Origin: an uncultured Blautia sp.
GTDB lineage: Bacteria > Bacillota > Clostridia > Lachnospirales > Lachnospiraceae
DNA: 37,930 nt
Direction of reading: 5' to 3'
Assembly (NCBI GenBank): GCA_946545475.1
Contig: CAMNNO010000007.1
Location: 1 to 37,930, forward strand
The translations under genes were made by a program, and so were the position numbers. Of the stretch, positions 5,638-34,270 are shown one piece after another (the stretch's first letter is position 1; the number at the start of each line of letters is the position of its first letter). The notes under the pieces are model-generated. The model was not told where the DNA came from. It saw nothing but the letters and a program-made list of their open reading frames with translations, and did not search any database.

Positions 5638-6876
5638 ATGAACAGAGAGTTAATAGAGGCGATGGATGTTCTGGAAAAGGAGAAGAGCATCAGCAAAAAG
5701 ACTCTGTTGGAAGCCATTCAACAATCTCTGATCCAGGCCTGCAAAAATCATTTTGGCAAGGCCGACAACATTGAAGTCAACATTAATGAGGAAACCGGCG
5801 ATTTTAAGGTCTTTGCCGACCGGACGGTGGTGGAGATGGTGGAAGATCCGGCTCTCCAGGTTTCCCTTGAGGACGCTCAGAAGATCAACACAAACGCGAA
5901 CATCGGCGACATCGTCAAGGTAGAGATAAAGTCCCGGGAATTTGGCCGCATCGCCACCCAGAATGCCAAAAACGTCATCCTGCAGAAGATAAGGGAAGAG
6001 GAGAGAAAAGCCCTCTTTGAGCAGTATTACAGCATCGAAAAGCAGGTGGTGACAGGCATCGTCCAGCGCGTGGTGGGCAAGACCATCAGCATAGACCTGG
6101 GCAATGTGGACGCCGTCCTCAACGAAAACGAGCAGGTCAAGGGCGAAGTCTTCAAGCCCACGGACCGCATCAAGATCTACATCCTGGAAGTCAAGGATAC
6201 GCCCAAAGGCCCCCGCATCCAGGTTTCCCGTACCCATCCCGGCCTTGTCAAGCGCCTGTTTGAATCGGAGGTCGCCGAGGTGCGGGACGGGACCGTGGAG
6301 ATCAAATGTATCGCCAGGGAGGCCGGTTCCCGGACCAAGATCGCCGTTTACAGCAACGACCCGAATGTCGACGCGGTCGGCGCCTGCGTAGGCGTTAACG
6401 GCATCCGCGTCAACACCATCGTCAACGAGCTGAAAGGCGAGAAAATCGACATCATCAACTGGGACGAGAACCCCGCCCTGCTCATCGAAAATGCCTTAAG
6501 CCCGGCCAAGGTCATTGCTGTCCTGGCCGATCCGGATGAAAAAACGGCCCTTGTGGTCGTGCCGGATTATCAGCTGTCTCTGGCTATCGGCAAGGAAGGA
6601 CAGAACGCCCGTCTGGCTGCCAGGCTGACCGGCTTCAAGATCGATATCAAGAGCGAGAGCCAGGCCAAGGCCGCCGGCGATGATTACGATTACTACGACG
6701 ACGAATACGACGAGGAGGACGAGTTCGCCGGGGCCGGCGAAAACGATCCGGAAAGCTCTTCGCAAGGTGAGCCTGCGGAAGAGCCCTCAGAGCCTTTAGA
6801 TCAGGAAGAGCCTTTAGATCAGGAAGAGCCTTTAGATCAGGAAGAAGTTTCGGAACAGGAAGAACCTTTGGAATGA
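5638..6876 (+). CDS. nusA: Transcription elongation/termination factor NusA
   Basis: 412 aa. NusA binds RNA polymerase and nascent RNA and modulates pausing, intrinsic termination and antitermination. The N-terminal RNAP-binding domain covers about residues 1-125. An S1 domain follows ([19 protein letters not shown], about 137-200). Two KH domains follow, with [20 protein letters not shown] near 263 and [18 protein letters not shown] near 318. After about residue 345 comes an acidic low-complexity tail, including [14 protein letters not shown] and three EPLDQE units. The ATG at 5638 follows GGAGG at 5621; an ATG at 5628 is out of frame. The stop overlaps the ylxR start by 4 nt (ATGA), suggesting translational coupling. 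Confidence 0.96.
6793..6846 (+). repeat. 18-bp tandem repeat in the nusA 3' end
   Basis: Three consecutive 18-bp units (CCTTTAGATCAGGAAGAG, the last ending GAA) encode PLDQEE three times in the acidic tail of NusA. Two copies are identical at the DNA level, which suggests recent expansion by slippage. The repeat is in frame, so copy number can vary without breaking the gene. Confidence 0.92.
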
Positions 6877-7637: not shown

Positions 7638-10600
7638 TTGGATACTCCAAACAATGAAATAAATACATCAGCCGCGTCCGAAAACAAGGACGATTCCCAG
7701 AAGAAAAAGAAGAATATCATCCGCATCTATCACGCCCAGAATGCCAGCGACACCGGCCGCGGCAGGGGAAACGCGGATAGCCAGAGGTCCAGGCGCCAGC
7801 GCCCGGCCGCAGCGGCAAAGCCCGCGGCGGAAGCCGAAAAGAAAGCGCCGGCCGAAGACGCGGCAGCGGCCCCTGCGCCCAAGGCAGCGCCGGCCGCCGA
7901 GGAGAAGAAAGAGACGGCAGCAGCTGCCGCAAAGAAAACCGCAGCGGTAACGGAAAAGAAACCGGCCGCCTCCGAGACGGAAAAGAAGGCTTCTCCTGCC
8001 GAAACCGAAAAGAAAGCCGCTGCCCCTGAGACCGAAAAGAAAGCCGCTGCCTCTGAAATAGAAAAGAAAGCCGCTGCCCCTGAGATAGAAAAGAAAGCCG
8101 CTGCCCCTGAGATAGAAAAGAAAGTCGCTGCCCCTGAGATAGAAAAGAAAGTCGCTGCCCCTGAGATGGAAAAGAAAGCTGCTGCCCACGAGATAGAAAA
8201 GAAAGCTGCTGCTCATGAGATAGAAAAGAAAGCTGTTGCCCATGAGATAGAAAAGAAACCGGCCGCCTCCGAGGCGGAAAAGAAACCGGCTCCTGCCGAG
8301 ACCGAGAAGAAAGCCGCGGCAGCAGAAAAGAAAGCGGCTGCCCCCGAGACGGAAAAGAAACCGGCTCCTGCGGAAACCGAAAAGAAGCCCGCTGCTGCCG
8401 AGAAAAAGCCCGCTGCCGCGGAGCCCGAGAAAAAGGCAGCGCCCGCGGAAGAGGTGAAGCCCTCAGCCGCTCCCGAAGGGGAAAAGAAGGCCTCCGAGGC
8501 TAAGGGCGCTCCCCGCAGGGATGACCGCCGCCCGCAGGGCGACAGGCGCGAAAACAAGCCCGCCGCCGGCGGCCGGGATGACAGAGCCGGAAGGCCATAT
8601 GACGCCCGCGCCCAGAGAACGGACGGAGCGGCCGGAAGGCGCGATGGCAGTACCAGAACCGATGGCCGCACCGGCACAAGGAGCGACGGCTCCCAGGGAA
8701 ATCGCGCCGGCGTAAGGAGCGACGGCTCCCAGCAGGGCCGCCAGGGCAGGACCGACGGGGGTGAGCGCCGGGGCGACATGGGCGGACGCCGCGACGGCCA
8801 GGGCCAGGGAAGGCCCGCCTCCCAGACACGCCCGCCCCGCGATGGCGCCGGCATGTCCGCGCGTCCGTATGGCGATGGCACCGGCGCCCAGAGAGGCACC
8901 GGCCGTCCCGGCGGCAGTACAGGCAGTCCCCGCTTTGGGCAGGGCGGCCGTCCCACGGGAGGCCAGGGCAGCTTTGGAGGCGATGGCGCTGGCAGGTCCT
9001 TCGGCCAGGGACAGGGCCGTCCCTCCGGCCAGGGAAGAGGTGGCCAGGGCGGCCGCCGTCAGGATGCCGGCGCAGCCTTCGCGCCCGAGATGTCCAAGAA
9101 CCAGAAGGACAGCAAGCGCGAGCGCGACAGGGAAAACAAGAACAAAAACAACCGCAAGGATTACGACCAGGCTCCGGCAAACCAGGGCAAGAGGCCGGGC
9201 CAGGGCGGAGTGAAGGGCGGTCCGAAAACAACCGTCAAGCCGGTGACCGCACCCAAGATCGAGGAAAAGAAGCCCGAGGTCAAGGAGATCACCCTTCCCG
9301 AGAAGCTGACCATAAGGGAGCTGGCCGAAGCCATGAAGGTGCAGCCCTCCGTTATCGTGAAGAAGCTCTTCCTCCAGGGCGTCATGGTGACCGTCAACCA
9401 GGAGATCGACTTTGAAAAAGCCCAGGAGATTGCCCTGGAATACGATATCATCGCCGAAAAGGAAGAGAAGGTCAACGTCATCGAAGAGCTCCTCAAGGAA
9501 GCCGACGAGGACGAGGCGACCATGGTGAGCCGTCCGCCCGTCGTGTGCGTCATGGGCCATGTTGACCACGGCAAGACATCCCTCCTGGATGCCATCCGGA
9601 ACACCAATGTCACCCGCGGCGAGGCCGGCGGCATCACCCAGCACATCGGCGCTTATGTTGTGGAGATCAACGGCCAGAAGATCACCTTCCTGGATACGCC
9701 GGGACATGAAGCCTTTACCGCCATGCGTATGCGCGGGGCGAATGCCACGGATATCGCGGTGCTCGTGGTCGCCGCCGACGACGGTGTCATGCCTCAGACC
9801 ATAGAGGCCATCAGCCATGCCAAGGCGGCTGGCGTCACCATCATCGTGGCTATCAACAAGATCGACAAGCCCGGCGCCAACATCGACAGGGTCAAGCAGG
9901 GCCTGGCCGAGCAGGGCCTGGTTCCCGAGGACTGGGGCGGCGACACGGTATTCGCCGAGGTTTCCGCCAAGACCGGCGAGGGCATCGATAACCTCCTGGA
10001 GATGATCCTGCTCACCGCCGAAATGGCCGAGCTCAAGGCCAATCCCAACCGGGATGCCAGGGGCCTTGTCATCGAGGCCGAGCTGGATAAGGGCAAGGGC
10101 CCCGTGGCCACCATCCTGGTCCAGAAGGGCACCCTGCATGTGGGCGATTTCATCGCCGCCGGTGCCTGCAGCGGCAAGGTCCGCGCCATGATGGACGATA
10201 AGGGACGCCGGGTTAAGGAAGCCGGTCCCTCCACGCCTGTGGAGATCCTGGGCCTTAACGACGTGCCCAACGCCGGCGAGGTGCTCATGGCCTTCGACAG
10301 CGACAAGGAAGCCAAGAACTTTGCGGGCGCCTTTGTCTCGGAAAACAAGAACCGCCTGCTGGAGGAGACCAAGGGCAAGCTCTCCCTGGATAACCTCTTT
10401 GACCAGATGCATGTCAACGATCTCAAGGAGCTGCCCATCATCGTCAAGGCCGATGTGCAGGGCTCCGTGGAGGCTGTGCGCCAGAGCCTTGTCAAGCTCT
10501 CCAACGATGAAGTCATCGTCAAGGTCATCCACGGCGGCGTCGGCGCCATCAACGAGTCCGATGTCAGCCTGGCGGCCACCTCAAACGCCATCATCATCGG

Positions 10601-18045: not shown

Positions 18046-18086
18046 AAAAAGATCGAGCAGGAGGGGATCCTCCCCTCCTACTCGAT
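18046..18086 (-). terminator. Intrinsic terminator of the D-2-hydroxyacid dehydrogenase gene
   Basis: ATCGAG and AGGAGGGGA pair with their complements at 18070-18086 with one mismatch. On the minus strand the stem is followed by CTTTTTC. The stem begins within the stop codon of the minus-strand gene. It may also stop transcription coming from dut, but the plus strand lacks a T-run. Confidence 0.82.
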
Positions 18087-19081
18087 TACCAGGGGTTGAC
18101 GATGCGCTTGGGGACGCGGCCTTCGGCAGCGGCTTTTATATCCTCCCAGATCATGGCGTAGCTGCGGCGGAAGCTGGAGGCTGTGATGCCGCCGATGTGG
18201 GGGCTCAGGATGAGCTTTTGCGAGAGCTCTTCCGGCAGGAGCAGGAGAGGATGGTCCTTTTTAACGGGCTCGTTATCCAGGGTATCCAGCCCGGCCATGG
18301 CAAGCTTTCCGGTTTTCAGGGCATCGATAAGGGCGCTGTCATCCACCAGCTCGCCCCGGGAGGTATTGACAAAGTAGCTGCCATCCTTCATAAGGGAGAA
18401 GAAGCGGGCGTTTGCCATGCCCTTTGTCGAAGCGTTGACCGGCAGGTGCAGGCTTACGATATCCGAATTTTTCAGAAGCTCCTCCAGGGGAAGGTACTGG
18501 ACATGATAAGAGGCTTCTTCTTCCGCGGTGAGGCGGTTCCTCTTATTATAGTAGATCGTTTCCACGCCGTAAGCGGCAAGGAGACGCGCAACGGCCCTGG
18601 CGATGTCGCCGAAGCCCACCAGGCCTATGCGGCAGTCCGCAAGCTCCTTAAGGTCGCCCCGCTTCATATAGCCTTCCTTGACTTGGATCTGTGCCCCCGT
18701 CCGGACGGCCAGGTCGTTCTGGATGACATTTTTAAGCATCCCGCTCATCAAAAGGATGGTCTGCTCCGCCACGGCGGAAGCATTCATGCCCTGGCTGTTG
18801 CAGACATAAACCTTTCTTTCCCGGGCAGCCTCGATGTCGAAGCAATTGAAGGCGACGCCCTCCGAGTGGATGAGCTTAAGCTTATCCATTCCCCGGATGA
18901 GCTCCCCGGGGACAGAGGCAATGGCATCCGCGACGATAAAGTCCGCATCGCCTGCCTTTGCGAGATATTCCGAAACCGGAAGGCCTTTCGGCATATCGAC
19001 GCGTTCGAGCTCGTACAGAAAGCTGTCAGGCGCCGAGTAGGTTTCCATGTTTCCTTCTTTTCCGATGTGAAGAACCTTCAT
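18086..19081 (-). CDS. NAD(P)-dependent D-2-hydroxyacid dehydrogenase family protein
   Basis: 331 aa. The family interconverts 2-keto and D-2-hydroxy acids. The Rossmann motif is GFGDIA (156-161). The catalytic residues are R242 (NTSRGELVD), E271 (LDNEPV) and H295 (SPHIGG), an intact triad. After the second strand of the Rossmann fold the residues read YYNKR rather than the acidic residue usual for NAD, which hints at NADP(H) use. The substrate cannot be deduced. The start has two tandem GGAGACAGAATATA copies upstream, each offering a ribosome site. It lies 49 bp downstream of the DUF1292 gene on the same strand, so the two may share the promoter at 19571. Confidence 0.9.
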   Translation of the reverse strand: MKVLHIGKEGNMETYSAPDSFLYELERVDMPKGLPVSEYLAKAGDADFIVADAIASVPGELIRGMDKLKLIHSEGVAFNCFDIEAARERKVYVCNSQGMNASAVAEQTILLMSGMLKNVIQNDLAVRTGAQIQVKEGYMKRGDLKELADCRIGLVGFGDIARAVARLLAAYGVETIYYNKRNRLTAEEEASYHVQYLPLEELLKNSDIVSLHLPVNASTKGMANARFFSLMKDGSYFVNTSRGELVDDSALIDALKTGKLAMAGLDTLDNEPVKKDHPLLLLPEELSQKLILSPHIGGITASSFRRSYAMIWEDIKAAAEGRVPKRIVNPW

Positions 19082-19082
19082 A

Positions 19083-19110
19083 TATATTCTGTCTCCTATA
19101 TTCTGTCTCC
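19083..19110 (-). repeat. 14-bp tandem duplication of the ribosome binding site
   Basis: Two exact copies of GGAGACAGAATATA (minus strand) lie directly before the dehydrogenase start codon. Each carries a GGAG core, but only the proximal one is at usable distance. It looks like a slippage duplication of the translation start region. Confidence 0.9.
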
Positions 19111-19130
19111 TCTACACACGTAGTTTCCTG

Positions 19131-19511
19131 TCAGCCCTCTGCGTTCTCGGGGTCAGCCGCGGCCGCAAGGGAAGAGCTCCGCAGCATATCGCGGAAGGTA
19201 TCCGCGCAGGCTTCGTACTCCACTTCGTCCTCGATATTGGAAAGAAGCGGATCTCCGTTTTCGGTCAGGGCAAAAATGAAAAGGTAAATGTCGTCCTTGG
19301 CCTCGCCATTCTCGCCCAGGGGCAGAAGGGCGATGTACTGCTTGCCGGCATAGGCCGGGTCGTCAAGAGAGAAAACCGTCAGCACATCACAGGTAACGGT
19401 GGAATCGTCCTGGAGAGTCAGCTCGATCTGGTTGTGAAGGATAGAAGGAGAAGGCCCGCACCCGCTGCACCCGTCACAGGAGCCGCTGCAATTCGTTGCA
19501 TTATTAGACAT
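19131..19511 (-). CDS. DUF1292 family protein (YrzB-like) with Cys-rich N-terminus
   Basis: 126 aa. The central region (about residues 28-95) fits DUF1292, with the pattern IELTLQDDSTVTCDVLTVF, then YIALLPLGENGE and DIYLFIF. These small proteins are common in Bacillota and have no established function. The first 20 residues include CSGSCDGCSGCG, which could bind a metal, though this is inference from composition. An alanine-rich tail ends the protein. AAGGATTA before the ATG serves as ribosome site. A consensus sigma-A promoter lies about 60 bp upstream. It is divergent from rpsJ. Confidence 0.82.
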   Translation of the reverse strand: MSNNATNCSGSCDGCSGCGPSPSILHNQIELTLQDDSTVTCDVLTVFSLDDPAYAGKQYIALLPLGENGEAKDDIYLFIFALTENGDPLLSNIEDEVEYEACADTFRDMLRSSSLAAAADPENAEG

Positions 19512-19570
19512 AAGATAATCCTTTCATATATAGTAGCGTTTCTTAATAATAGCGTTTCTGTCGCACTCAG

Positions 19571-19599
19571 ATTATAATTATTTGTCATCAATCTGTCAA
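19571..19599 (-). promoter_or_regulatory. Consensus SigA promoter for the DUF1292 gene
   Basis: On the minus strand TTGACA (19599-19594) and TATAAT (19576-19571) match the consensus exactly with a 17-bp spacer. It is the strongest-looking promoter in the window, driving a gene of unknown function. Confidence 0.88.
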
Positions 19600-19693
19600 C
19601 TCCGGGGCTATAGGTATCTTTTTCCCTCCGGTGACGTGAGCCTTGTATTGTCATATTTCACAAAATAAAATACAAAATCCCTTAAAAATATAC

Positions 19694-19722
19694 TTGCCAA
19701 AATAAAAAAATAAGGTTATACT
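19694..19722 (+). promoter_or_regulatory. SigA-type promoter of the S10-spc superoperon
   Basis: TTGCCA at 19694-19699 and TATACT at 19717-19722 have a 17-bp A-rich spacer. It points toward rpsJ and would give a leader of about 310 nt. Confidence 0.8.
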
Positions 19723-19724
19723 AC

Positions 19725-20037
19725 CTATTGCTGTGACATTGATAGCTGTGAAGCGCGAGGTTGCTGCCCTTTGGGGTACATTCCATTGAGGCAGGTTTTT
19801 CCGTGGAGCGAATGTCAAGTTAGAAAAACTGACGACAAGTCACTGTACAAAGTTCAATAAACCATCATGAGGGATGGCGTGCATGGTTCCTGAAAAAAGC
19901 CCCCGCATCCGGCTGAGAATGGCCGGACAGATCATTGCGGCCTTTGGGCAGATAAGTGTTGGGACACGCACGGTGATGTGTACAGTCGCCGCTTGTCGTA
20001 CTGCTTAAAAGAGTACGAATAGGAGGAGACTTTTTTT
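19725..20037 (+). ncRNA. Long structured 5' leader of rpsJ, candidate r-protein-responsive RNA
   Basis: About 310 nt without a gene between promoter and rpsJ. It holds several hairpins: CCGGC/GCCGG (19909-19926), an ACCAT/ATGGT pair (19861-19888) and TCGTACT/AGTACGA (19996-20018) just before the AGGAGGAG ribosome site. A conserved leader upstream of rpsJ has been reported in Clostridia as a putative ribosomal-protein-responsive RNA, and position and length fit. I could not align it. Confidence 0.55.
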
Positions 20038-20355
20038 ATGGCAAATCAGATACTCAGAATTACCCTTAAAGCCTATGATCATCAGCTTGTAGACGCGTCC
20101 GCCGCCAAGATCGTGGATACCGTCAAGAAGAACGGCTCCGCCGTCAGCGGTCCGGTTCCGCTTCCCACCAAGAAGGAAGTTGTGACCATTCTCCGCGCCG
20201 TCCACAAATATAAAGATTCCCGTGAGCAGTTCGAGCAGAGGACCCACAAGAGGCTCATCGACATTCTTGAGCCCACCGACAAGCTCCTCGAGGCCCTTTC
20301 CCGCCTGGAAATGCCTGCCGGCGTCAACATTGAGATCAAGACCAAGGCCCGCTAA
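20038..20355 (+). CDS. rpsJ: 30S ribosomal protein S10
   Basis: 105 aa, near the usual 102-103. S10 is a late-assembling protein of the 30S head and also forms the NusB-S10 (NusE) antitermination complex. Recognisable blocks are [20 protein letters not shown] near residues 6-25, [17 protein letters not shown] near 37 and [12 protein letters not shown] near 70. It starts at ATG 20038 after AGGAGGAG plus a T-run. It leads the operon; no fusA or tuf lies upstream. A 245-bp structured spacer separates it from rplC. Confidence 0.97.
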
Positions 20356-29860: not shown

Positions 29861-29870
29861 GGTGATCCTG

Positions 29871-31187
29871 ATGTTAGAGACTGTTAAAAACCTATTCCGA
29901 GTCAAAGAGATGCGGAGAAAGCTCCTCTATGTCCTTGGGATGATCTTTGTCATCCGCTTGGGCTGCCAGCTTCCGGTCCCGGGCGTTAACCGGGCGGTTT
30001 TGCAGGAGGTCTTCAGCTCCTTCAGCGGCGAGGCCTTCAATTTCTTTGATTCCTTTACCGGTGGTTCGTTTACTCAGATGTCAATATTCGCTCTGAATAT
30101 CACACCGTACATTACATCATCCATTATCATGCAGCTCCTTACCATCGCCATTCCGGCACTGGAAGAGATGCAGAGAGATGGCGAGGAAGGCAGAAAGAAG
30201 ATCACGGCCATCACCCGTTACCTGACGGTCGGCCTGGCTGCCTTCGAGTCCATCGCCATGGCTATCGGTTTTGGCCGCCAGGGCGTTATCCCGAACATGA
30301 ACTTCCTTAAGGGAGTCGTGGTTGTGGTATGCCTGACCGCCGGTTCCGCCATGCTGATGTGGATCGGTGAGCGTATCACGGTCAAAGGCATTGGAAATGG
30401 TATTTCCATCGTCCTTGTTGTCAACATTGTATCCCGTATCCCGGCTGACTTCGTTACGCTGTATTCCCGCTTTATCGCGGGCAAGCCTGTGGCCATCGGC
30501 ATTCTGGCAGCTATCATCATCATTGCCATTATCCTTGTCGTGGTGGTCCTGGTCCTGCTGCTTAACGGCGCCGAGAGAAGGATCCCGGTTCAGTATTCCA
30601 AGAAGATGGCCGGCCGGAAAATGTACGGCGGACAGTCGTCGCATATTCCGCTCAAGGTTAACACCGCCGGTGTTATCCCCGTCATCTTTGCTTCCTCTAT
30701 CATGTCCTTCCCGAGCATTATCGCTCAGCTGCTCGGCAAGGGCAACGGCACAGGCATTGGCAGCGAGATCCTCAGGGGCCTCTCTTCCAACAACTGGTGT
30801 AATCCCGCTCAGCTGAAATACAGCTGGGGACTTATCGTATATATTGTCCTTTGCGTATTCTTCGCATACTTCTATACTTCCATTACCTTCAATCCTCTGG
30901 AAGTTGCGGACAATATTAAGAAGCAGGGCGGCTTCATCCCGGGCATCCGCCCCGGCAAGCCCACCTCCGATTACCTGACAGGCATCCTTAACTACATCAT
31001 TTTCATCGGTGCTGTTGGCCTTATCATTGTAGCGGTAATCCCCTTCTTCTTTAACGGTATCTTCGGGGCTAATGTCTCCTTCGGCGGCACCTCCATCATC
31101 ATTATCGTGGGTGTTATCCTTGAGACCATTAAGCAGATCGAGTCCCAGATGCTTGTGCGTAATTATAAGGGATTCCTTGCAAAATAA
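29871..31187 (+). CDS. secY: Preprotein translocase subunit SecY
   Basis: 438 aa integral membrane protein with ten predicted transmembrane segments, forming the protein-conducting channel with SecE and SecG. MIFVIRLGCQLPVPGVNRAV near residues 23-42 is transmembrane 1. SFTQMSIFALNITPYITSSI near 67-86 includes the plug and transmembrane 2. The cytoplasmic loops carry RRIPVQYSKKMAGRKMYGGQ and NIKKQGGFIPGIRPGKPT. The ATG at 29871 is chosen over the in-frame GTG at 29862 because GAGGTG itself is the ribosome site. Unlike many Bacillota, a terminator and a new promoter separate it from adk. Confidence 0.97.
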   Translation: MLETVKNLFRVKEMRRKLLYVLGMIFVIRLGCQLPVPGVNRAVLQEVFSSFSGEAFNFFDSFTGGSFTQMSIFALNITPYITSSIIMQLLTIAIPALEEMQRDGEEGRKKITAITRYLTVGLAAFESIAMAIGFGRQGVIPNMNFLKGVVVVVCLTAGSAMLMWIGERITVKGIGNGISIVLVVNIVSRIPADFVTLYSRFIAGKPVAIGILAAIIIIAIILVVVVLVLLLNGAERRIPVQYSKKMAGRKMYGGQSSHIPLKVNTAGVIPVIFASSIMSFPSIIAQLLGKGNGTGIGSEILRGLSSNNWCNPAQLKYSWGLIVYIVLCVFFAYFYTSITFNPLEVADNIKKQGGFIPGIRPGKPTSDYLTGILNYIIFIGAVGLIIVAVIPFFFNGIFGANVSFGGTSIIIIVGVILETIKQIESQMLVRNYKGFLAK

Positions 31188-31382: not shown

Positions 31383-32027
31383 ATGAAGATTATCATGCTT
31401 GGCGCACCGGGAGCAGGCAAAGGCACCCAGGCTAAGAAGATTGCCGAGAAGTATGGCATTCCGCATATTTCCACCGGCGATATCTTCCGCGCGAATATCA
31501 AAAACGGAACCGAGCTGGGCAAAAAAGCCAAAACCTTTATGGATCAGGGCCTCCTGGTTCCGGATGAGCTGACGTGCGACCTCGTGGTCGACCGCATCCA
31601 GCAGCCGGATGCCGCGCGCGGGTACGTGCTGGACGGCTTCCCCCGCACGATCCCCCAGGCCGAATGCCTTAAGGATGCCCTGGATAAGCTGGGCAGCCGG
31701 ATCGACTATGCCATTGATGTCGATGTTCCGGATGAGAACATTGTCAACCGCATGGGCGGCCGCCGGGCCTGCCTTAAGTGCGGCGCCACCTATCATATTG
31801 TCTACGCGGCTCCGAAGCAGGAAGGCATCTGCGATTCCTGCGGGGAAGCCCTTGTCCTCAGAGATGACGACAAGCCCGAGACCGTACAGAAAAGACTGAA
31901 TGTCTATCATGAGCAGACCCAGCCCCTTATCGACTATTACAACGGCCAGAACGTGCTCAGAACCGTAGACGGCACCCAGGATCTGGAGGATGTTTTCAAG
32001 CAGATCGTCCAGATCCTCGGAGAGTAA
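31383..32027 (+). CDS. adk: Adenylate kinase
   Basis: 214 aa. It catalyses ATP + AMP to 2 ADP. The P-loop is GAPGAGKGT (residues 7-15). [10 protein letters not shown] near 30-39 and [11 protein letters not shown] near 84-94 form the AMP-binding region. The LID domain is the long zinc-binding form with C130, C133, C150 and C153 (CLKC and CDSC). [13 protein letters not shown] follows. The start follows AAAGGAGG. It heads a separate transcript with map and infA, ending 9 bp before map. Confidence 0.97.
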
Positions 32028-32036
32028 GGAGCCCCC

Positions 32037-32831
32037 ATGTCCGTATCCATTAAAACAGAGCATGAAATTGAGTTAATGCGGGAATCCTGCCATCTGCTGG
32101 AAAAAGTCCACAATGGCCTGATCCCCTATATCAAACCCGGCATCAGCACCAAGGAGCTGGACAGGATCGGCGAAGAGATGATAAGATCCATGGGCTGTGT
32201 GCCGAATTTCCTGAACTATGGCGGGTTTCCAGGCTCCTTTTGCATGAGCCTTAACGACGAGGTGGTCCACGGCATTCCCTCGGAGGAGAAGATCCTTCAG
32301 GAGGGCGACCTTCTCAAGGTCGATGCCGGACTGATCTACAAAGGCTATCACTCCGATGCCGCCAGGACATATGCCGTCGGCGAGGTATCACCGGAAGCCC
32401 AGGCCCTTATCCTGGCCACGCAGAAATGCTTTTTTGAGGGGATAAAGATGGCCAGGGCCGGAAACTTCCTGAATGATATCTGCAAGGCCATAGGCGCGTG
32501 CGCGGCCAAATACCGGCTTGGCATTGTCAGGGATCTTGTGGGCCATGGTATCGGCACTCATCTTCATGAGGACCCGGAGATACCCAACTTCCCGATGAAG
32601 AAAAGGGGCATCCGGCTGCAGCCGGGCATGACCCTGGCGATCGAGCCCATGATGAACCTGGGCCGGGGCGATGTGTGCTGGCTGGACGATGAGTGGACTG
32701 TAGTGACCGACGACGGTTCCCTGTCCGCGCACTATGAGAACACGATCCTCATCACGGAAGGCGACCCGGAGATACTGACGCTGACCACGGACTGGAAAAA
32801 AGAGTTCTGGGAAGACCCGATAAAAGTTTAA
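32037..32831 (+). CDS. map: Type I methionine aminopeptidase
   Basis: 264 aa. It removes the N-terminal methionine from nascent proteins. The five metal ligands are present: D96 (KVDAG), D107 (HSDAAR), H170 (GHGIGTHLHE), E203 (AIEPMM) and E234 (HYENTI). The substrate histidine lies in VVHGIP near 79. The length is slightly above the usual 250 because of a C-terminal extension (LTTDWKKEFWEDPIKV). The ATG at 32037 has AAGGAG overlapping the end of adk, typical of a coupled operon. Confidence 0.96.
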   Translation: MSVSIKTEHEIELMRESCHLLEKVHNGLIPYIKPGISTKELDRIGEEMIRSMGCVPNFLNYGGFPGSFCMSLNDEVVHGIPSEEKILQEGDLLKVDAGLIYKGYHSDAARTYAVGEVSPEAQALILATQKCFFEGIKMARAGNFLNDICKAIGACAAKYRLGIVRDLVGHGIGTHLHEDPEIPNFPMKKRGIRLQPGMTLAIEPMMNLGRGDVCWLDDEWTVVTDDGSLSAHYENTILITEGDPEILTLTTDWKKEFWEDPIKV

Positions 32832-32858: not shown

Positions 32859-33077
32859 ATGTCGAAAACAGACGTTATTGAAGTAGAAGGAACGGTTCTC
32901 GAAAAACTGCCCAATGCTATGTTTAAGGTGGAACTGGAAAACAAGCATGTGGTCCTGGCCCATATCAGCGGACGGCTGCGCATGAATTTCATCCGCATCC
33001 TTCCCGGGGATAAGGTGACGCTGGAGCTTTCCCCCTATGACCTGTCCAAGGGCCGGATCATCTGGAGAGATAAGTAA
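32859..33077 (+). CDS. infA: Translation initiation factor IF-1
   Basis: 72 aa, exact family length. IF-1 is an OB-fold protein that binds the 30S A site during initiation. [20 protein letters not shown] opens the protein. [20 protein letters not shown] near residues 22-41 and [20 protein letters not shown] near 42-61 match the family, ending [11 protein letters not shown]. The start follows AAGGAGA. A gene for a small membrane protein follows 29 bp later, in place of the usual rpmJ. Confidence 0.97.
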
Positions 33078-33106
33078 CCCCCCTCTGCCCCAGAAAAGAG
33101 GACTTT

Positions 33107-33571
33107 ATGAGACAGCTCATCAGTTTTCTTGACAGACTTGCCATTTGGGTGCTGGCTGTGGCCGCCATCCTGCTGTTTGTGCCGCAAAGGCTCGGAATAC
33201 AGCAGGTCGTCATCGACACACCGGACAGCCAGTCGAACCTGCCCTTTGCCAGTGCGACTTACGCTTTGAAGACAGATCCGTATGACGCCTTTGTCGGCGA
33301 TAAGATCCTTGTTCGCGACGGAGACTATTACAGCCGTTTTGTCCTGGTTGACCTGGATGTCTCGAACGGCACGGGGACCGTAAAAAATCCCTATGATGCG
33401 AATGAAACCTACCAGATCTCCGTGTCGGAATATGTGCCCAAGATCCTGGTCACTATCCCCTATATCGGATATCTCGCCATTATCGTTAAGAGCACGCAGG
33501 GGATCTATACGCTGGCCGGCGTGGTCTTTGCTCTTCTGATTCTGTATCTGCTGACCAGAAAGAGAAAATAA
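33107..33571 (+). CDS. Small membrane protein resembling a degenerate SipW-type (S26B) signal peptidase
   Basis: 154 aa, function not established. An N-terminal transmembrane helix (about 8-26) is followed by an extracytoplasmic domain and a second helix (about 131-149) with a basic tail (TRKRK). Alignment by eye to the SipW/ER-type signal peptidase fold: SQSNLP (41-46) sits where SGSMEP would be, VGDKILV (63-69) at VGDIITF, SRFVLVDLD (76-84) at the THRVVEI strand, NPYDANE (94-100) at KGDAN, and VTIPYIGYL (115-123) at the typical IPYLGYL. The catalytic histidine position is arginine and the serine motif is poor, so it is probably inactive or altered. It lies between infA and rpmJ, probably in the adk operon, followed by a terminator. 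Its ribosome site is weak (AGAGGA). Confidence 0.8.
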   Translation: MRQLISFLDRLAIWVLAVAAILLFVPQRLGIQQVVIDTPDSQSNLPFASATYALKTDPYDAFVGDKILVRDGDYYSRFVLVDLDVSNGTGTVKNPYDANETYQISVSEYVPKILVTIPYIGYLAIIVKSTQGIYTLAGVVFALLILYLLTRKRK

Positions 33572-33605: not shown

Positions 33606-33640
33606 AAAAGGTCGGACCTTATATAAAGGTCCGACTTTTT
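33606..33640 (+). terminator. Intrinsic terminator after the SipW-like gene
   Basis: GTCGGACCTT and AAGGTCCGAC form a perfect 10-bp stem around ATATA, extended by an A-run and a T5 run. It ends the adk-map-infA transcript. Confidence 0.9.
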
Positions 33641-33788
33641 ATTATGGCAGGGCCACCCATAAGAAATTTGTCACCTGACGGTGACGGGCGGCCCGCCGGG
33701 GAGGTTTTCCTCCTGCCCGATTGTGCGAGATGACGAAACCAGGCGGAACAAAAACGTATAATTTTGTTGCGTATTTTCGAAAAAAAAC

Positions 33789-33817
33789 TTGCAATCGGGC
33801 ATATCCGATGATATTAT
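33789..33817 (+). promoter_or_regulatory. SigA-type promoter for rpmJ and the alpha operon
   Basis: TTGCAA at 33789-33794 and TATTAT at 33812-33817 are 17 bp apart; the -10 region is A/T-rich and offers alternative registers. It lies 80 bp before rpmJ. The stretch 33641-33788 before it holds no gene I can support. Confidence 0.75.
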
Positions 33818-33897: not shown

Positions 33898-34011
33898 GTG
33901 AAAGTAAGATCTTCTGTCAAACCGATCTGCGAAAAGTGCAAGGTCATTAAGAGAAAGGGAGCTATCCGCATTATCTGCGAGAATCCCAAGCACAAACAGC
34001 GTCAGGGGTAA
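33898..34011 (+). CDS. rpmJ: 50S ribosomal protein L36 (GTG start)
   Basis: 37 aa, exact family length, easily missed because it is short and starts with GTG. The protein begins [20 protein letters not shown]. The zinc ligands C11 and C14 are followed by C27 ([15 protein letters not shown]) and the conserved histidine, giving the zinc-ribbon form. AAAGGAGG lies 9 bases before the GTG. It is transcribed from the promoter at 33789 through a possible attenuator. A 379-bp gap follows before rpsM. Confidence 0.96.
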
Positions 34012-34270
34012 TTTTAGCCGTTGCTCCTCGCGATGCGTGTATTGCCTAATACCGACAGGCAAACGGGGGGAGAAGCATAAGATGTCCCCTCTAAGGGCAA
34101 AGCTGGCCCAGTCGGAAAGGCTGCCATATTTCGCCATCCGGCAGCTGGGTGCATACCGAGACACCCCAATTAGGAGCGAAAAGAGATGAGCAGATTCTGA
34201 TGCATCCCATTTCACCTTGCAGGTCCTGCAAGTGATGTACATGAATACCGGCTCGTTTCACACATGATTT
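34012..34270 (+). ncRNA. Structured RNA candidate between rpmJ and rpsM
   Basis: About 260 nt with no credible gene. Successive hairpins can be drawn: TTGCCT/AGGCAA (34042-34062), GGGGA/TCCCC (34067-34089), GGGC/GCCC (34095-34109), GCTGCC/GGCAGC (34120-34145) with an outer CCCA/TGGG pair, and CTTGCA/TGCAAG (34216-34232). Position before rpsM matches where ribosomal protein S4 controls the alpha operon in Escherichia coli. Whether this RNA does the same is inference. No known riboswitch consensus was recognised. Confidence 0.45.

Follow-up and report, generated by a model that had tools for sequence, protein, structure and literature searches.

A probable catalytically dead homolog of archaeal-type signal peptidases, encoded behind infA in an uncultured Blautia species

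Introduction

The DNA analyzed here, referred to as the window, is a stretch of 37,930 nucleotides from an uncultured Blautia sp. Between infA and rpmJ, it carries a short gene for a putative membrane protein, which raises the questions of what this gene encodes, how it came to this site, and whether the nearby secY and translation genes indicate its role. A preliminary description had proposed a degenerate SipW-like signal peptidase whose product could act as a chaperone or regulator of protein export coupled to translation. A literature search on whiA-crh-rpsJ synteny or inactive SipW proteins returned nothing useful.

Results

The short gene (33107–33571, plus strand) is an intact open reading frame of 154 codons encoding 154 amino acids according to ORF calling. 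It starts 29 nt downstream of the infA stop codon and is preceded by the ribosome-binding-like sequence AGAGGA (33097–33102). Its GC3 value (0.645) resembles those of infA (0.63) and rpsM (0.61), and its composition is that of its neighbors. These features, together with a paralog in the same genome and relatives throughout the genus, support the earlier view of a real gene between infA and rpmJ. Its annotation as a tail-less pseudo-signal-peptidase is based on the reading frame, the paralog, an S26B profile match, and the AlphaFold and Foldseek results.

Upstream on the same strand and in the same gene cluster are located secY (29862–31187, identified by sequence), adk (31383–32027), and map (32037–32831), the latter two taken from the ORF list, as well as infA (32859–33077, ORF list and search). 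Downstream, an intrinsic terminator with a 15-bp stem including the U tract (33606–33640, plus strand; fold z = −5.54) marks the end of the spc operon. The gene rpmJ (33898–34011, plus strand, ORF list) has a leader of its own and a promoter-like site (33789–33817) ahead of it, so that it appears to start the next transcript. Because of this terminator and the separate leader and promoter-like site of rpmJ, the short gene is predicted from gene order to close the spc cluster secY-adk-map-infA. Two Rfam leaders, S10-Clostridia (19740–19838) and S4-Clostridia (34115–34174), were found elsewhere in the window ahead of rpsJ and rpsM, respectively, and low-complexity repeats are present in the regions encoding the N-terminus of IF2 (7638–8500, EIEKKAAAP-like units) and the C-terminus of NusA (6800–6876, EEPLDQ units).

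The assumption that infA and rpmJ are normally adjacent in Bacillota does not hold for Blautia, in which rpmJ follows infA within 1.5 kb in only 6 of the 27 loci with 1.5 kb of readable sequence at this point. The other post-infA loci of the genus harbor unrelated genes, among them those for MATE, HflK/C-like, NUDIX, LysR, and two-component system proteins. Since the site behind infA is variable, the position of the short gene says little about a connection with SecY or translation.

For the homology analysis, 24 genuine S26B peptidases, mostly of the same genus, were drawn from the organism's own and related genomes. In hhalign comparisons with this set, the profile of the protein family described below was collinear over 149 columns (98.8% probability), and the window protein alone reached 98.1%. 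The family HMM also retrieved reading frames with intact SGSMEP and THR motifs (E about 1e-13 to 1e-16), and a long family member from Lactonifactor matched the NCBIfam SipW model (E 1.3e-6, model positions 14–183 of 189). The window protein itself gave no match to Pfam and nothing above the cut-off in NCBIfam, where NF046067 scored 12.5 bits versus the required 190; hmmsearch of PDB sequences with the family profile yielded chance matches only.

The AlphaFold model of the window protein (mean pLDDT 87) displays two helices, residues 2–28 (33110–33190) and 130–152 (33494–33562), flanking a beta domain, which agrees with the two-helix membrane protein described before. Foldseek matched this model to LexA, SEC11C, SipA (PDB 4n31), and SpsB, whereas LexA and SpsB ranked at the top for the model of the long form; SEC11A was also among the signal peptidase matches of the two models. 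The E-values are modest (0.0016–0.1 across both models) and none is below 0.001. A different fold was considered, as small Tudor-type barrels appeared in the Foldseek lists, but these covered only about 55 residues. Taken together, the profile, SipW model, and Foldseek evidence makes S26 ancestry very likely. We regard it as highly probable that the short gene encodes a remote, catalytically dead homolog of archaeal-type (S26B/SipW) signal peptidases.

The window protein shares with Bacillus SipW and archaeal-type signal peptidase I (TIGR02228, NF046067) the two helices around a beta domain and is collinear with them over its whole length. Active members, however, contain SGSMEP and THR, and SipW cleaves TasA and TapA, whereas the window protein lacks both motifs. 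The peptidase domain of LexA and UmuD (S24) has the same beta fold in the Foldseek comparison, but these proteins lack membrane helices, and LexA possesses a Ser-Lys dyad, which has no counterpart here.

The positions of the catalytic residues were assigned by hhalign and MAFFT, which agree in aligning S-G-S-M to T38-P39-D40-S41 and T-H-R to R77-F78-V79. According to these alignments and the column compositions, the catalytic serine of SGSMxP is replaced by Asp40 (codon 33224–33226) and the catalytic histidine of THR by Phe78 (codon 33338–33340). The window protein is therefore predicted to have lost both catalytic residues, the serine as well as the histidine. This shifts the register proposed earlier, although homology and topology of the S26B layout were borne out. 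The sequence SQSNLP, taken as the serine site, falls just past Asp40, and the arginine thought to replace the histidine, Arg77, is located one residue before that site.

Of 59 relatives, 58 have Tyr in the histidine column and the remaining one has Trp, and various residues occur in the serine column (Ser 14, Asp 12, Gly 10, and others). Judged by this alignment, only the loss of the histidine would be uniform in the long family, the serine position being variable. No histidine occupies its column in any of the 60 sequences. Any histidine within residues 60–112 occurs in only 9 of 60 aligned rows; hence, none is conserved there. Residues N44, L45, S49, T51, and Y52 are invariant across the family alignment. 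They belong to the signature NLPxGSVTY just past the dead serine site, which reads NLPFASATY in the window protein (33236–33262), Gly48 and Val50 both being changed to Ala. The invariant Ser49 aligns with the GS following IP in active enzymes, away from the nucleophile.

The paralog in the same genome, a protein of 388–404 amino acids encoded on contig C36, is 39% identical over the whole length of the short protein (E 1.6e-28). Matches were found in 62 of 64 Blautia genomes, including the genome studied here, which has both forms; the two genomes without a match are only 66% and 72% complete. A profile scan of named genomes with the family alignment gave 77 loci, mostly from Blautia and other Lachnospiraceae. 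Across the order, an even sampling of 392 genomes yielded only 20 with matches at E 1e-5, several of these being ordinary peptidases, which indicates that the family is restricted. No Pfam family was found for the long form, and the family is unnamed. Of the 77 fetched loci, 65 have HPr upstream and 63 rpsJ downstream, and several of those lacking these neighbors are cut by contig ends.

The long proteins comprise about 310–640 amino acids. Their N-terminal 155 residues are homologous to the window protein (23%–39% identity), and both forms have the NLPxxSxTY and GY signatures in common as well as an aromatic residue in place of the histidine. They differ in a charged cytosolic tail of roughly 150–480 residues, which is confined to the long form and in most cases ends in a TLFDYSDII-like sequence (consensus GDaPdiv.D.iT.VTLfDYSDIi; Asp335 invariant, Tyr336 and Ser337 conserved in more than 90%). 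In the AlphaFold model of the long form, the N-terminal domain is mostly modeled with pLDDT 90–98 and is followed by a disordered middle part and a small, ordered C-terminal element (approximately residues 301–345, pLDDT 78–88). The short reading frame stops after helix 2, ending in RKRK, and lacks the cytosolic tail and its DYSD motif; it is located after infA, in contrast to the usual position of the long form between HPr and rpsJ. As the main new point, the window gene is predicted to encode a short, divergent, tail-less version of a protein family that is conserved but catalytically dead. Of the earlier proposal of a degenerate, catalytically altered homolog, the lost catalysis stands, but not the picture of a lone degenerate gene.

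At the sensitivity used, a second, short copy was detected only in the organism's own genome among the 64 Blautia genomes, and it is known from one draft assembly of 318 contigs (91% complete). The other short frames listed were one S26B-like enzyme locus and one partial match. The phylogenetic tree placed the window protein inside the Blautia clade, where its terminal branch measures 2.08 changes per site, compared to a median of 0.2; because of this branch length, its exact place is unsure. Of the conserved family positions, it keeps 12 of 17 in the ectodomain, 2 of 8 in the N-terminus and helix 1, and 5 of 12 in helix 2. The best explanation of these sequence comparisons is that the short copy is a duplicate of the long pseudo-signal-peptidase gene that has been truncated and has diverged fast. 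A horizontal origin was rejected, since GC and GC3 match the neighboring genes and the protein falls within Blautia, albeit on a long branch of unsure placement.

The long gene also has different neighbors in this genome. On contig C36 it is no longer beside rpsJ, and HPr is found at the end of contig C193. The synteny of HPr, the long gene, and rpsJ known from other Blautia is thus broken, and the region ahead of the S10 operon is occupied by other genes (window positions 18086–20038, compared with loci L064–L069 of other Blautia). Directly after the terminator of the short gene, a dispersed repeat of 62 nt was identified (33640–33701, plus strand; 42 matches in the same genome), which occurs at three places of interest: after the short gene, at the end of C193, and near the end of C36. 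A repeat-mediated rearrangement would be a reasonable guess. Among the repeat copies with a readable flank, 33 of 34 follow a strong hairpin; of 45-mers drawn at random from the window, 25% reach the same fold energy. The repeat has the look of a mobile or repeat element targeting or traveling with terminators.

Discussion

Two known proteins bear on the possible function. SipA of Streptococcus pyogenes, in which the catalytic serine is changed to aspartate, has no peptidase activity and keeps a peptide cleft; it is needed for pilus assembly and polymerization (PMC4049620). SipW is described as having a regulatory function for matrix genes besides cleavage (PMC9486643). In light of these precedents, the most fitting reading of the family is that its members bind peptides but do not cleave them. 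SipA (PDB 4n31) and the window protein have in common a signal peptidase fold without a dyad and an aspartate at the serine site, the fold of the window protein being modeled and supported by modest Foldseek E-values. However, SipA is of Ser-Lys (S26A) type origin with an N-terminal membrane helix ahead of the outside domain and is encoded in a pilus locus with a sortase, whereas the window protein is of the S26B type and its gene has ribosomal and spc operon genes as neighbors. No pilin, sortase, or TasA-like client is encoded near the short gene at this locus. Elsewhere in the same genome (contig C82), a genuine SipW-type peptidase gene with SGSMEP and THR adjoins a gene whose secreted product looks like TasA/camelysin, and proteins of 403–420 amino acids in which an S26B signal peptidase, its motifs intact, is fused to a class B sortase were noted in several genomes of one related genus.

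According to the proposed mechanism, the protein would consist of an extracytoplasmic beta domain with one membrane helix on either side, Asp replacing the nucleophilic Ser and Phe the His that serves as the base. The extracytoplasmic domain might still bind an extended peptide, for example, an export signal or the membrane-proximal segment of a surface protein. As the bound peptide would remain uncleaved, the protein could serve as a holding factor or adaptor, as proposed for SipA and pili. The long form would relay binding to the cytosol, or tether it there, via its conserved tail. Lacking this tail, the short copy would act outside the membrane only, either with a client of its own or in competition with the long form. 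The preferential retention of conserved ectodomain residues, with most of those in the N-terminus and the helices lost, fits such a role confined to the outer face.

Taken as a whole, the reading of the window protein as a dead S26B homolog, derived from a truncated duplicate and acting as a SipA-like holder, is given a probability of roughly 0.6. Its parts differ in strength. The non-cleaving peptide binder, which draws on the analogy to SipA, is a tentative assignment at somewhat below even odds, and the details of client and partner are doubtful. The chaperone or regulator suggested in the preliminary description is possible on the same analogy.

Alternatively, the gene could be a truncated copy of the long gene that landed in a tolerant spot behind infA and is drifting to loss without a function. 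Its presence in a single genome, the long terminal branch, the many different inserts at the infA-rpmJ junction, and the missing cytosolic part would all be expected of such decay. Yet the reading frame is intact, with a ribosome site and no premature stop at about 39% identity to the paralog, the conserved ectodomain positions have been preferentially kept, and the base composition is not foreign, which leaves a functionless remnant rather unlikely. A dominant-negative or regulatory partner, pairing with the long form or its client via the ectodomain and thereby blocking or tuning signaling, would be a special case of the preferred explanation. The occurrence of both forms in one genome and the lack of the entire tail including the DYSD motif are in line with it, but conservation is lowest in the N-terminus and helix 1, through which the proteins might pair; we consider it possible, though still improbable.

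A function in export together with SecY or translation, through cotranscription with secY, adk, map, and infA, was suggested by the position of the gene at the end of the spc cluster ahead of the terminator. The position beside adk, map, and infA near secY is as described earlier, but the tie read from it is not sustained: among the genomes searched, only this species has the gene there, other Blautia carry unrelated genes at the junction, and the conserved long form adjoins rpsJ and HPr, not secY. Such an export factor is very unlikely. Hardly credible is an active peptidase with a shifted dyad, in which Ser41, Ser43, or Ser49 would cooperate with another base. Serines do occur near the old site and Ser49 is invariant in the family; however, it does not align with the nucleophile of active enzymes, and neither the histidine column nor residues 60–112 offer a conserved histidine.

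The preferred reading of a dead, peptide-holding S26B homolog can be extended to the family. In this speculative and rather improbable form, Blautia and some other Lachnospiraceae would possess an unnamed core family of transmembrane pseudo-signal-peptidases, encoded next to HPr and the S10 operon, that sense exported peptides outside the cell and signal to the cytosol via the conserved tail, and the window gene would be the tail-less competitor or specialized holder that one species derived from this family. Inactive signal peptidase homologs are known from a few pilus loci. An inactive S26B family that carries a cytosolic tail and is conserved throughout a common genus of the gut would show this fold in a new setting. 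It would also allow one to test how a protease can become a protein for binding or signaling, and the short copy may be regarded as a natural separation of the outside domain from the inside tail.
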